This document shows positions 43,978 to 53,067 of a stretch of DNA of 64,000 nt, in pieces. The position numbers and the translations under genes are program-made. Origin of the DNA: Rikenellaceae bacterium (lineage in GTDB: Bacteria; Bacteroidota; Bacteroidia; Bacteroidales; Rikenellaceae); assembly GCA_017415005.1 (NCBI GenBank), contig JAFQJK010000023.1:1-64000 (forward strand). Direction: 5' to 3'. The notes beneath the pieces were generated by a model, which made no database searches, was not told the DNA's origin, and saw only the letters and a list, made by a program, of their open reading frames with translations. The number at the start of each line of letters is the position of its first letter. Position 1 is the stretch's first letter.

Positions 43978-44667
43978 TTATTTGTCTGCCTTAGCGGCCA
44001 GATACGCGTCGTACATGTCCAGCATCCAGGCATCGTTCTCCTTGGACTCTTTTTTATGCACCTTGCCTTCGGGGCCTTTGAACCAGTTCTTGCAGAAATC
44101 TTTCAAGCCCGGATATTGCTTGTCCATCAGCACGGAGCTGACCAACATATACGGATAGACGATCTTGTCAGGGTCATTGTGGAAACGGATGCCGTACATG
44201 GTTTTCAGTACCCGGCGGTCGGTGTTGCCGATCCGCTCGGTCGTCCATATTTTCCACCAGTAGGTCGTGGCATTCGCACCGGCCTTGTTCAGGCAGACCA
44301 TACGACGGATCGTGTGGTAGCGGTCTGCGAGGCCGGGCGACGCCAGCTCGCGCGCTTCCCAGCGGATACCGTCCGGATTGGACTCGGTCTTTTCGACGTA
44401 TTCGACACTCTCCACATCCTCCACCGTGTATTTGACCGGTTCTTTGTCGTCGGGGGTCTTGGCGAGCTTGAACGAGTAGTTCTCTTTTTTCAAAAATGAC
44501 GATTCGGCGTGCCAACCGCGGTGCAGGTAGCCGTCTGCTTTCTCTCCGGATCGCAGGGTTACTACTACCCGGCGGAACTCCTGATCCTCCGGTTTCTTGG
44601 CTTCCGTCCGGCTGATCGTGCCTGACGCGACGAGCACGACGGCAGCGAAAAGTAAAAACTGTTTCAT
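43978..44667 (-). CDS. Small exported protein (pair B, member 2)
   Basis: Unknown function; 229 residues with a Sec signal peptide (MKQFLLFAAVVLVASGTISR). After the signal it has RRVVVTLRSGEKADGYL, a polar segment, and a C-terminal half with WWKIWTTERIGN and YPYMLVSSVLMDKQYPGLKD. The N-terminal domain resembles that of the gene upstream (IYLKSGAVVECVGDDRL), suggesting a shared fold. The start at 44667 is set by the signal peptide. It lies 16 bp after its neighbour and is probably the second gene of a two-gene operon. Confidence 0.78.
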   Translation of the reverse strand: MKQFLLFAAVVLVASGTISRTEAKKPEDQEFRRVVVTLRSGEKADGYLHRGWHAESSFLKKENYSFKLAKTPDDKEPVKYTVEDVESVEYVEKTESNPDGIRWEARELASPGLADRYHTIRRMVCLNKAGANATTYWWKIWTTERIGNTDRRVLKTMYGIRFHNDPDKIVYPYMLVSSVLMDKQYPGLKDFCKNWFKGPEGKVHKKESKENDAWMLDMYDAYLAAKADK

Positions 44668-44683
44668 GCGTATTTTATTTGGG

Positions 44684-45304
44684 TTAGTGTTCGGTCGGAT
44701 CGTAGTCCCGCAGCATGAGGACGGTCTTGTCCCGGTAAGCGTTCGACCGGCGTATGCGTTCGGCCAGTACGGGGTCGTCGTCGATATAACGGGCGATGCG
44801 CTCACGGAAAACGTCTTTCGACCGGCGGGAAGTGCTGCCTACACATTGATATTCGCTATCGCCACGTTTCTGTAGAAAATAGGCCGTCCTCGACCGGCTG
44901 AACCATCTGCGCCGCTGCCAGATTTGTATGCCGCCGTTCGTATCGATGCTGTAGCCCTTCCGCGAATAGACGCACGCCTTGATATACGGAGTCTCGACAT
45001 ATATCCACATCCAACCCGGCTCAGAGGCCCAAACCAGCTTGCGGGCGTGTTCAGGGGTCTTGGCATGCCAGCAAACCACCGAGTCGATCTGATCTCCGGG
45101 GAGGAATTCTTTGGTCTTCGTTTTCCGGAAAGCATCGCGGAAGATCTTCAGTCTCCCGGATCGTTTAGGCATCATCAGCCGGTCGTCGCCCACACATTCG
45201 ACAACAGCCCCGCTTTTCAGGTAAATGCGTCCTTCGACCAGCGACGCCGCATGTGCCGATCCCGCTGCGGCGAGCAGGGACAGAAGCAGTAAAAAACGTT
45301 TCAC
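44684..45304 (-). CDS. Small exported protein (pair B, member 1)
   Basis: Unknown function; 206 residues with a typical signal peptide (MKRFLLLLSLLAAAGSAHA-A, predicted cleavage after AHA). The mature part starts SLVEGRIYLKSGAVVECVGD, then PGDQIDSVVCWHAKTPEHAR, and ends with a charged region. The pattern of a strand, an LKSG turn and a strand resembles member 2 at 43978. A full promoter lies just upstream, giving an operon of two exported proteins. Confidence 0.78.
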   Translation of the reverse strand: MKRFLLLLSLLAAAGSAHAASLVEGRIYLKSGAVVECVGDDRLMMPKRSGRLKIFRDAFRKTKTKEFLPGDQIDSVVCWHAKTPEHARKLVWASEPGWMWIYVETPYIKACVYSRKGYSIDTNGGIQIWQRRRWFSRSRTAYFLQKRGDSEYQCVGSTSRRSKDVFRERIARYIDDDPVLAERIRRSNAYRDKTVLMLRDYDPTEH

Positions 45305-45718: not shown

Positions 45719-46270
45719 TTACGGCATCGGTACGGGCGCTTCCTCCGGCTCTTCGCACCATTCGTCGGATGCGCTGAACTCCTTGTCGGCGAAAAGCGCG
45801 GCCAGCCCCGAGATCTGTTTGAGGCGCAGCAGCTCGTCCTTGTCCATGCCGATGTGGCGCATGATCCAGCGGTCGGACATACCCGATGCGACCAGCTCGG
45901 CCACGATGCCCGTCATCAGCTCGACGGAGTGGGTGCCGCGCGCCCGGTTGTGGCGAATGGTGGAGGCCATGCGGTTGGAGAGGTCCTTGTCGATGACCAC
46001 CACCGGCAGTAATCCGTGTTCGCGCTCATAGATGCGGCGCGAGGTCTTCATAACCAGGTAGCGGTGGTAACCGTCGACGATTTCGTAGAGGTCTTGTTCC
46101 TGGAGGTGATAGCAGACGCAGGGCATCGTGTAGCCGTCCTCCCATATCGAGAGTTCCAGCAGGGCCATTTCCGGCGGGGCGACCACGTTCGGGTTATAGC
46201 TGTTGGCCACCACTTTCTCCACCGGAACGGCTTTCACCGCGTATACCGGACTTGCGGATTTATTTTTCAT
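45719..46270 (-). CDS. ParB-like nuclease-domain protein (IbrB-like)
   Basis: A 183-residue protein with a ParB/sulfiredoxin-type N-terminal domain: VPVEKVVANSYNPN at about residues 16-29 and the hallmark YEIVDGYHRYLVM at about 61-73, corresponding to the GERR region of ParB. A helix-turn-helix-like part (SDRWIMRHIGMDKDELLRLK) follows, then an acidic tail. ParB domains of this type bind or hydrolyse nucleotides. Its start overlaps the end of the PAPS-reductase-like gene by 11 bp. Pairing with that gene matches the IbrA/IbrB pair of E. coli, regulators of immunoglobulin-binding proteins. The start at 46270 is the first ATG after a long shadow frame. Confidence 0.85.
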   Translation of the reverse strand: MKNKSASPVYAVKAVPVEKVVANSYNPNVVAPPEMALLELSIWEDGYTMPCVCYHLQEQDLYEIVDGYHRYLVMKTSRRIYEREHGLLPVVVIDKDLSNRMASTIRHNRARGTHSVELMTGIVAELVASGMSDRWIMRHIGMDKDELLRLKQISGLAALFADKEFSASDEWCEEPEEAPVPMP

Positions 46271-47552
46271 GGTCGAGGATTTTGTACTTGCGTATCGCGT
46301 TCTCCCGTCTCTGGCGTTCCTGCTTGGTCGGGGAGAACCCCATGTATTTGCAGGCATGGTCGTTTTTTAGGATGCAGATGCACATCCGCTTATAGGTGGG
46401 CAGTTCCCGGAACTCCGCGATGTCCAGGTCGTCGAGGTACTCCATCCGCACCGGTCTTTTGTCGGTCCGGTAGCCCGATGGGCCTTCCACGCGGATGGGG
46501 ATGCCGGCCGTCCGCAGCTTTGCGATGGTCTCTTCGGAGAGGCATCCTCCCTTTTCGCGCCAGAAACGGACGCTGACCTGCAGTTTCTCCAGGTAATTCT
46601 GCCGAGCCTGCCGGGGTAGCGTGTCCAGCAGGAAATACATATACTCTTTCCATGAGAAACCCTCCGGACAGGTGATCCCCCGCCACCCCATGGCCGAAGT
46701 GCTGCCGTACATGGCGGCGCATCCGACACCGTTGACGCGTCCCACCATCCGTCCCCAGGTGTCGGGATCGACAGCCTTGTAGACGGCCAGGGTCGAGAGG
46801 GCCTGTGAGATGAAAGGACTGGCCACCCGCTGTTTGGCAACCGGGATTCCCGCCTGGTAGTAGAGGTCGTACAACGCGTTGTATGCCCATCCGAACCGGC
46901 TGTTGGCGATCCAGATATCCTCCGTTTTCCAATCGTATATGGGGTAGGCGTTGTACTCGTGCCATCCGATCCTGCGGGTCCATTTGTAGCTGTGGAGGTG
47001 CTGGCAGTTCCGGTCGCTGTGTATGGCCCGCCACCGGTTGATGCTCTCCTGGGTCCGGATCCCGACCATGCAGCATATTTTCCGGCAACGCTTTTTGCGC
47101 CTGAGCCATCCGGCGAACAGGCGCTGGAAGTCATAGTCCCACATTTCCGGCCGGAAGAAACCGAAGTCTTTCTGCGTAAGGCATCCTTCGGGCCTCTTCC
47201 TCACCCAGATGTCCCGGAAACGCTCTTCCCAGGGGCGCCAGTGGGCCTGATACATGGACGTGCAGGTCTCGACCCGGAAAGGGACGCAGCAATGGAACAC
47301 TTCCAGGATATCCCGGTTTTCCGACAGGGTGCGTTCGACATAGGCCGTCGTTTGCCGGTACTGGGCCTCGTAATCCATATGGAATACGCCCAGTTTGCGT
47401 CCCGGAGCGTTCTTGCGGATATAGTCGATGCACAGGTTCAGCAGCACGCCGCTGTCTTTCCCCCCGGAAAAGGAGACGTACACATAGTCGAAATAGTCGA
47501 AAACGATCTTCAGTCGCTTCTGTGCCGCATCATATACGTTCAGCCTGTACAT
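46260..47552 (-). CDS. PAPS reductase-like PP-loop protein, DUF3440 (IbrA-like)
   Basis: A 430-residue protein of the phosphoadenosine-phosphosulfate reductase family. The PP-loop ATP-pyrophosphatase motif is SGGKDS at residues 29-34 in YVYVSFSGGKDSGVLL. A Cys-rich CRKICCMVGIRTQESINRW segment and a DUF3440-type C-terminal half follow. Enzymes of this family adenylate a substrate for sulfur transfer or reduction; the relative DndC acts in DNA phosphorothioation, but this protein is not DndC. Start at 47552 (MYRLNVYDAAQKRLKIVF) is preferred; 47570 is an alternative. It overlaps the GNAT-like gene by 23 bp and the ParB-like gene by 11 bp, so the three are translationally linked. Confidence 0.87.
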   Translation of the reverse strand: MYRLNVYDAAQKRLKIVFDYFDYVYVSFSGGKDSGVLLNLCIDYIRKNAPGRKLGVFHMDYEAQYRQTTAYVERTLSENRDILEVFHCCVPFRVETCTSMYQAHWRPWEERFRDIWVRKRPEGCLTQKDFGFFRPEMWDYDFQRLFAGWLRRKKRCRKICCMVGIRTQESINRWRAIHSDRNCQHLHSYKWTRRIGWHEYNAYPIYDWKTEDIWIANSRFGWAYNALYDLYYQAGIPVAKQRVASPFISQALSTLAVYKAVDPDTWGRMVGRVNGVGCAAMYGSTSAMGWRGITCPEGFSWKEYMYFLLDTLPRQARQNYLEKLQVSVRFWREKGGCLSEETIAKLRTAGIPIRVEGPSGYRTDKRPVRMEYLDDLDIAEFRELPTYKRMCICILKNDHACKYMGFSPTKQERQRRENAIRKYKILDHEK

Positions 47553-47955
47553 GCGTGTGGTGCGGATCATACCGCATTTTTTCGTAGTTTTTCCATTGGA
47601 GACATGGGCTGAAGCCCTGCCGGGCGAAGCGCTCCACATGTCTTTTATGTACCGTGGCCTGAAGTCCGGCCCGGTTTTCCCCGTCGGCGATGACCGTAGC
47701 GAGCAGGCGTTCCAGCAGGTCCGCGTCGTCTCCCCGCACATAGTAGTTGTCGAGGATGCACTCTCCGGATGAGTTCCGCCTGAGCGGCATGAAACCGACC
47801 GCCGCGTCGTTCTCCACGGCGACATACCACGTGTACCTCACGCCCGTTTTGAACGGGTAGTTGTTGTTGTATCTCACGATGGGCGGGCTCATGACCAGCG
47901 GAGCCACCAGTTCGTAAAGTTTTCTGTCCGTTCCTTGCAGTTTGACGATCTTCAT
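47530..47955 (-). CDS. Small GNAT-like acetyltransferase
   Basis: A 141-residue protein with a GNAT-like pattern: VRYTWYVAVENDAAVGFMPL (strands 3-4), CILDNYYVRGDDADLLERLL (strand 4 and helix 3) and KRHVERFARQGFSPC near the end. The classical acetyl-CoA loop (Q/RxxGxG/A) is not clear, so activity is uncertain. It is the first gene of the three-gene overlapping cassette with the PAPS-reductase-like and ParB-like proteins. The start at 47955 follows from the MKIVKLQGTD beginning. Confidence 0.75.
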   Translation of the reverse strand: MKIVKLQGTDRKLYELVAPLVMSPPIVRYNNNYPFKTGVRYTWYVAVENDAAVGFMPLRRNSSGECILDNYYVRGDDADLLERLLATVIADGENRAGLQATVHKRHVERFARQGFSPCLQWKNYEKMRYDPHHTHVQAERI

Positions 47956-48487: not shown

Positions 48488-51601
<3,114 letters not shown>

Positions 51602-52310: not shown

Positions 52311-52342
52311 TTTGATTTTGACAGGTGTTTTGGTTATCTTTG
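52311..52342 (+). promoter_or_regulatory. Promoter upstream of the GNAT gene
   Basis: TTTG at 52311-52314, a 20-nt spacer and TATCTTTG at 52335-52342 give a full consensus. The start codon is over 230 bp away, so either the leader is long or another product is transcribed here. Confidence 0.7.
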
Positions 52343-52575
52343 TGTCAGTTGCTTGTGGTCGTTGGCATTCATGCGCAGGGCGAAAATGGCACGGTTGCCT
52401 TTTCGTTGCCCCGCCCCTGCCTGAAGAAATGCAATGGCCCGATTTCTACGTCTGTTGCCATTTTTTAGAGGCGTTTCCGCGGGGACGGCCCTGTTTTTGT
52501 CCGGATATCCGGATGCGCCCGGTGCCGCGGCGCCGGGAGAGGCGGGCAGGGCTCAAATCAAAATGGATGATGCTG

Positions 52576-53067
52576 ATGAGCGAAACATGGAGTGTTGAAC
52601 GGGCGGTGCCCGGCGATGCAGCCGATATCCTCGGGCTGATCCGCCGCCGTATTGCCTGGATGGACGAGCGGGGTATCCACCAGTGGAACGAGGATGCCTA
52701 TCTGGAGGTGTTCCCCCATGCCTATTTTGTCCGGGCGGCCGATGAGGGCCGGCTCTATGTGGTCCGGCAGGGGGGCGAGCTGGCCGGTGCCTTTACGCTG
52801 TTCGAGACCGATGCCCGGTGGGAGGACCGGATGCCTGCCCTGTATGTCCATAACCTCGTTTCGCATCCCGGGCGGCGGGGTGCGGGTCGCGCTGCGCTGC
52901 GTTTCTGTGAGGAGGAGGCCCGGCGGCGGGGTGTCGGCAGGCTCAGGCTCGATTGCATCGCCTCGAATCGCGAGCTGAACGCCTTTTATGATACCTTGGG
53001 TTTCCGTTTTGCCGGGACCTGTGCCGTGGGCTGGTACCGCGGCACGCTCCGCGAAAAACGGTTGTGA
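52576..53067 (+). CDS. GNAT family N-acetyltransferase
   Basis: A 163-residue acetyltransferase. VHNLVSHPGRRGAGRAALRF at about residues 94-113 contains the acetyl-CoA-binding pyrophosphate loop (RRGAGRA), and LDCIASNRELNAFYDTLGFR at about 131-150 is the conserved C-terminal motif B. The substrate is unknown. Alternative starts at 52567 and 52570 lie in the same frame; 52576 (MSETWSVE) is taken because the fold begins immediately afterwards. Confidence 0.85.
   Translation: MSETWSVERAVPGDAADILGLIRRRIAWMDERGIHQWNEDAYLEVFPHAYFVRAADEGRLYVVRQGGELAGAFTLFETDARWEDRMPALYVHNLVSHPGRRGAGRAALRFCEEEARRRGVGRLRLDCIASNRELNAFYDTLGFRFAGTCAVGWYRGTLREKRL

Follow-up and report, generated by a model that had tools for sequence, protein, structure and literature searches.

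Three overlapping genes in the window (the whole 64,000 nt stretch of Rikenellaceae DNA analysed here) form a conserved operon, and our literature searches found no description of this trio. At a probability of roughly 40%, we read the operon as a self-contained, horizontally moving unit of gut Bacteroidales, in which an IbrA-IbrB core and a GNAT-fold accessory protein would act on DNA targets. The first-pass annotation had described an overlapping three-gene cassette at 45719-47955; its coordinates and its overlaps of 23 bp (genes 1 and 2, 47530-47552) and 11 bp (genes 2 and 3, 46260-46270) were borne out, and all three genes lie on the minus strand. The features of the operon are listed in Table 1. 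The start of IbrB was set at 46270 by family alignment; a longer ParB ORF begins at 46357.

Table 1. Genes and motifs of the three-gene operon, with positions in the window
Feature	Position	Strand	Description
Gene 1, GNAT-like, 141 aa	47530-47955	minus	GNAT fold; no Pfam, NCBIfam or PHROG family
Gene 2, IbrA-like, 430 aa	46260-47552	minus	PP-loop ATP pyrophosphatase domain (SFSGGKDSG), then DUF3440
Gene 3, IbrB-like, 183 aa	45719-46270	minus	ParB/sulfiredoxin-type domain (VDGYHRY, IRHNRARG) and C-terminal helical, HTH-like part
Motif NNNYPFKT of the GNAT-like protein, residues 30-37	47845-47868	minus	family alignment
Beta4-alpha3 region of the GNAT-like protein, NYYVRGDDADLLERLL, residues 70-85	47701-47748	minus	conserved NYY and acidic loop

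The arrangement of the three genes is no chance association. The GNAT-like gene was recovered in 11 genomes besides its own in a survey of 60 relatives, each time adjacent to the IbrA gene, and all 22 strong GNAT-like matches in 294 Bacteroidales genomes lay beside a DUF3440 gene (in one of the 22, G295, the contig ends inside IbrA). Strong DUF3440 matches (E<1e-50) were present in 23 genomes of the order survey, 22 of which also carried the GNAT gene. In the remaining one, G129, the position just upstream of IbrA is taken by a SNF2-type helicase. A scan of public genome contigs identified the complete trio, all genes full-length and with order and strand conserved, in 74 of 80 loci. The tight co-expression layout proposed from the window recurs across these public loci as near-zero spacing, with medians of -1 and -7 bases. 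Essentially all of the 80 loci belong to gut Bacteroidales (Bacteroides, Phocaeicola, Parabacteroides, Odoribacter, Rikenella, Prevotella relatives, Butyricimonas and Barnesiella), two metagenome bins being labelled Roseburia and Clostridium, and no strong match outside the Bacteroidales was detected among 392 Bacteroidota genomes.

Non-conservation of the trio, or inactivated PP-loop and ParB-like active sites in most of its homologues, had been named in the first-pass annotation as grounds for abandoning the proposal; both were checked, and neither applied. Besides the 74 complete loci, we found the PP-loop motif SGGKDS intact in 75/75 IbrA sequences and the IbrB box VDG[FY]HRY kept in 74/75. 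The IbrA gene is split into pieces in three loci (L128, L159 and L161), the GNAT gene is cut to half in G013 (L037), and G031 (L038) keeps IbrA-IbrB with the GNAT gene absent from the kilobase upstream. These cases look like minor decay, and the last two indicate that the GNAT partner can be lost. Three trio-bearing GenBank records are named 'Bacteriophage sp.' (MT835983.1, MT839645.1 and MT838936.1; L041-L043); their other genes look chromosomal (transporters, an aminotransferase, an epimerase), and we rejected reading them as phages; the records look like fragments of bacterial chromosomes. Two further trio-bearing records, labelled as plasmids (NZ_OY725755.1 and NZ_OY725969.1; L283 and L284), contain GH92 hydrolases, thiazole synthase and efflux genes, and may be mislabelled chromosomal pieces.

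The operon has moved between families, as revealed by discordant identities of IbrA and of SecA, which was used as the vertical marker. The same-genus genome G001 shares 61% identity with the window in IbrA and 94% in SecA, whereas Odoribacter laneus (G331) shares 75% in IbrA and 65% in SecA. The left flank and secA are syntenic with G001, and the region to the right of secA is not. The operon is found in tractable human gut species, including B. fragilis and Phocaeicola vulgatus ATCC 8482 (NC_009614.1), the latter with two divergent copies (L105 and L150). No neighbour recurred in more than 9 of the 80 loci, the few tRNAs at the loci followed no pattern of tRNA-linked insertion, and upstream of the operon we detected no shared operator or parS-like repeat, only A/T-rich promoter-like words. 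Between secA and the operon in the window lie two adjacent overlapping ORFs (43978-44805 and 44684-45304), which are probably secreted and have no Pfam or NCBIfam match. A hybrid histidine kinase (48488-51601) also adjoins the operon; four relatives lack a close counterpart of it, whereas its own genome has many paralogues (the best at 40%), and it looks like a product of lineage-specific hybrid kinase expansion.

The genomic setting bears on the proposal that the trio is an anti-phage defence system. Patchy distribution of a small mobile operon and homology to phage-borne genes would suit such a role, but the 79 flanking proteins sampled were mostly housekeeping or generic, with one strong type IV restriction match, and no defence or mobile gene recurred across the loci. 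None of the three proteins gave a strong PADLOC match. We consider a defence function improbable; the neighbourhood survey advocated in the first-pass annotation upheld the conservation of the trio and not its clustering with defence or mobile genes.

The strictly linked partner encoded by gene 1 is named 'hypothetical protein' in public Bacteroidales records, and a sequence search against solved structures yielded weak matches only. The AlphaFold2 model, built from an alignment of 56 relatives, was confident (pLDDT 92.2, pTM 0.86) and adopts a GNAT alpha/beta fold over its whole length (Foldseek 1e-6; best VIA Z 14.4, to ElaA, with an rmsd of 2.3 A over 129 residues). The GNAT acetyltransferases ElaA, YjcF and RimI match the entire model with Z of about 13-14 and rmsd of 2.3-3.1 A, at 10-19% identity. 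The original guess of a GNAT protein was therefore right at the level of the fold. However, the acetyl-CoA pyrophosphate loop, Q/R-x-x-G-x-G/A, was found in 0/75 members in the beta4-alpha3 region, which was placed by alignment to the RimI-like 9mto; an ordinary GNAT of the same window (52312-53067), taken as a control, does have the loop. At this place the GNAT-like protein has a short acidic loop, preceded by an almost invariant NYY. The family keeps a second private motif, with NNNYPF present in 75/75 members and N30, N32, P34 and T37 invariant in the 56 aligned sequences. The fold topology suggests that NNNYPFKT and the NYY/acidic loop may both sit close to the cleft in which donor and acceptor come together.

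Judged from its alignment, the GNAT-like protein appears to have lost the cofactor loop that is usual in GNATs. Because this loop is absent and other motifs are kept, we describe the gene 1 product as having a GNAT fold and private conserved motifs, and do not call it an acetyltransferase; the classical acetyltransferase reading is not supported. The suggested structure prediction delivered a confident fold, and the absence of the acetyl-CoA loop from all 75 sequences makes acetyl transfer doubtful as one step of the three-step modification that had been proposed. The same loss weakens the idea that the operon is a module of toxin-antitoxin type, with a GNAT toxin neutralised by IbrA/IbrB. A small GNAT-fold protein is indeed encoded by the first gene of an overlapping operon, but IbrA/IbrB is no classical antitoxin and both phages and E. 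coli have IbrAB copies that lack the GNAT gene, and we regard such a module as hardly probable at all.

The likeness of genes 2 and 3 to IbrA and IbrB was confirmed by family searches. IbrA matched the Pfam families DUF3440 (PF11922, 8e-90) and PAPS_reduct (PF01507, 2.5e-11), both over their cut-offs, and PHROG 2302, a phage 'PAPS reductase' family (3e-100); against solved structures its sequence gave weak matches only. Four cysteines of IbrA (C89, C391, C393 and C401, numbered as in the window protein) are invariant in the Bacteroidales set; for C89 and C391 the invariance extends to the wider IbrA set that includes phage sequences. The catalytic motif of PAPS reductase, ECGxH (C-terminal ECG[IL]H), was found in 0/75 IbrA sequences. 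The common annotation 'PAPS reductase' is consequently misleading, and a PAPS-reductase (CysH) identity of IbrA is not supported. The missing motif also argues against an operon for sulfur assimilation or small-molecule metabolism that pairs a PAPS reductase with an acetyltransferase. The PF01507 match would be in keeping with such an operon, as would the thiazole synthase gene that adjoins one operon copy; set against this, no metabolic neighbour recurs and hardly any locus lacks the ParB-like protein, which leaves this alternative very improbable.

IbrB, directly downstream of IbrA in the window and in the same order at the 74 complete loci, belongs to PHROG 2159, 'ParB-like partition protein' (3e-76), and its Pfam ParB_N match (0.0016) falls under the curated cut-off. 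The AlphaFold2 model (pLDDT 81) contains a ParB-type domain plus an HTH fold; its best folds were KorB, Noc and ParB, with DNA-binding helices (E about 2e-6 to 5e-6, at TM of only 0.4-0.56), followed by Srx and free serine kinases. A sequence search against solved structures gave one modest match, to Noc. The canonical CTPase box of ParB proteins is GERRxR. This CTP-binding box is absent from IbrB, where VDG[FY]HRY takes its place, so the clamp behaviour of ParB cannot be assumed for IbrB. IbrB thus shares a predicted fold with the ParB/KorB/Noc CTPases and with Srx/SerK, and differs from ParB, KorB and Noc in its box and in its partners, which are IbrA and the GNAT-like gene instead of ParA. 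ParB-type folds bind CTP, ATP or GTP according to a recent survey, in which a bacterial ParB-acetyltransferase fusion bound GTP (PMC12704722). An NTP-dependent role for IbrB is accordingly plausible, and nucleotides other than CTP are possible.

Homologues of IbrA/IbrB occur in many phages and in E. coli, where the same PP-loop and DUF3440 gene is followed by a ParB-like gene in the IbrAB island, in YbdN/YbdM of K-12 and in the phage 'co-activator of prophage gene expression'. They share PHROG 2302 and 2159 with the Bacteroidales set, and the window IbrA is about 31% identical to E. coli phage IbrA (H42) over 99% of its length. In E. coli, IbrAB is reported to activate prophage eib genes (PMC10434257), and activation of target-gene transcription by the pair is known from E. 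coli alone. CitR represses ybdNM, the homologous operon in that species (PMC9068703). The Bacteroidales version differs from E. coli IbrAB in that a third, GNAT-fold gene precedes IbrA and in that the operon is chromosomal, not prophage-borne. The papers that our searches found give no account of the biochemistry of IbrA/IbrB homologues.

The PP-loop proteins of the Dnd, Ssp and BREX type 4 systems (DndC, SspD and BrxP) insert sulfur into DNA (PMC10853773, PMC12839542), and Dnd also includes a ParB-superfamily protein, DndB (PMC10853773). The trio resembles these systems in its PP-loop enzyme, but the similarity of IbrA to DndC and BrxP is weak (E about 1e-4 to 1e-5), and neither a desulfurase nor an ABC ATPase is encoded in the trio. 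A TIGR03185 search of its own genome (92% complete) gave no match to DndD. The analogy with Dnd made in the first-pass annotation is not supported by these comparisons, and we rejected a Dnd relationship, as the 92% complete genome gave no DndD.

A more general form of nucleic-acid or nucleotide modification is the main rival to our reading, and shares most of its evidence with the regulatory complex. IbrA would adenylate and thiolate, or otherwise substitute, a base or the backbone at DNA selected by IbrB, the GNAT-fold protein would add or position a further group, and in phages the result would protect DNA from host restriction. A PP-loop enzyme with conserved cysteines, a ParB-like partner, the precedent of sulfur insertion by the Dnd, Ssp and BREX type 4 proteins, the abundance of IbrA in viral contigs and the SNF2 helicase of many phage versions are all consistent with this proposal. 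Against it stand the operon's lack of a desulfurase, DndD or other phosphorothioation gene, the genome's lack of DndD, the weak DndC/BrxP matches and the missing CoA loop of the GNAT-like protein. We consider modification a serious but rather unlikely alternative; a multi-step modification pathway is conceivable.

The phage versions revealed that the third gene is exchangeable. A survey of viral contigs with IbrA returned at least 590 candidate stretches, and 80 viral loci were analysed. IbrB lies next to IbrA in 71 of these, and a SNF2-type helicase (PF00176, 7.7e-12) is encoded in 35, mostly directly upstream and ending at the IbrA start. A small conserved protein (~130-150 aa, motif NRxAW[IL]G) was present, either before IbrA or after IbrB, in 25/80 loci (L182:648-1046, L231, L232, L244 and others); none of its members scanned matched a Pfam family over cut-off. 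The GNAT-like gene was found in just two viral loci, on contigs that single-protein and narrow-alignment searches had missed and that surfaced with the IbrA search. In the 80 loci SNF2 never occurs together with the small conserved protein or the GNAT-like gene, but the exclusion of SNF2 and GNAT is not absolute, as the Bacteroidales genome G011 has the order SNF2-GNAT-IbrA-IbrB. Listeria carries a hypothetical protein-SNF2-DUF3440-ParB cassette between pyrH and tkt. The phage and Listeria cassettes share the IbrA-IbrB core and an upstream overlapping partner gene with the Bacteroidales operon; the partner is a SNF2-type helicase (PF00176) in the former and the GNAT-like protein in the latter. 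Since other third genes often accompany viral IbrA-IbrB, the GNAT-like gene fills a swappable slot, and we read IbrA-IbrB as a core with an exchangeable third subunit. The swapping of partners is a concrete hint that IbrAB normally acts together with a third subunit.

The fold of IbrB, the PP-loop of IbrA, the association with SNF2 in phages and the report on eib in E. coli led us to favour a DNA-associated, NTP-driven regulatory or modifying complex as the most likely nature of the trio. We infer a physical complex in which IbrB, with its ParB/Srx-type NTP-binding fold and HTH, would bind DNA in an NTP-dependent manner. IbrA, a PP-loop ATP pyrophosphatase with conserved cysteines, would consume ATP to activate a target that the complex holds, and might thiolate it. 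With the CoA pyrophosphate loop lost and other conserved motifs kept, the GNAT-fold protein could serve as a specificity or adaptor subunit, occupying the slot that a SNF2 translocase or another small protein would fill in phage versions. By analogy with IbrAB and the prophage eib genes of E. coli, the most likely net output would be a changed expression or state of particular DNA targets, an analogy limited by the distance of the homologues (about 31% identity).

We further speculate that IbrA and IbrB make up a DNA-acting machine of general use, driven by NTP and with a third subunit that can be exchanged, of which the Bacteroidales version is undescribed, and that the GNAT-fold protein, without the usual use of acetyl-CoA, gives specificity or a new donor chemistry, leading to DNA or nucleotide modification of a new type. 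This extension is unlikely as a whole. With three sets of conserved motifs, a partner that is strictly linked to it and still unnamed, and its occurrence in tractable species, the Bacteroidales operon is a suitable place to study the family.

Several viral contigs contain further arrangements of these domains. In L181 (5344-5997), one protein joins the GNAT-like domain and a C-terminal piece of DUF3440 (PF11922, 7e-7), a fusion that counts in favour of the proposed functional unit. This piece of DUF3440 (P.YK..C..ILKND...LGF) behaves as a separate module: it is apparently fused to the small NRxAW protein in L228:8258-8953, and stands alone in small ORFs about 257 bases upstream of IbrA in L230, L239 and L252. 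In L195 (2376-3686), a reverse transcriptase gene (PF00078) lies directly upstream of the GNAT-like, IbrA and IbrB genes.
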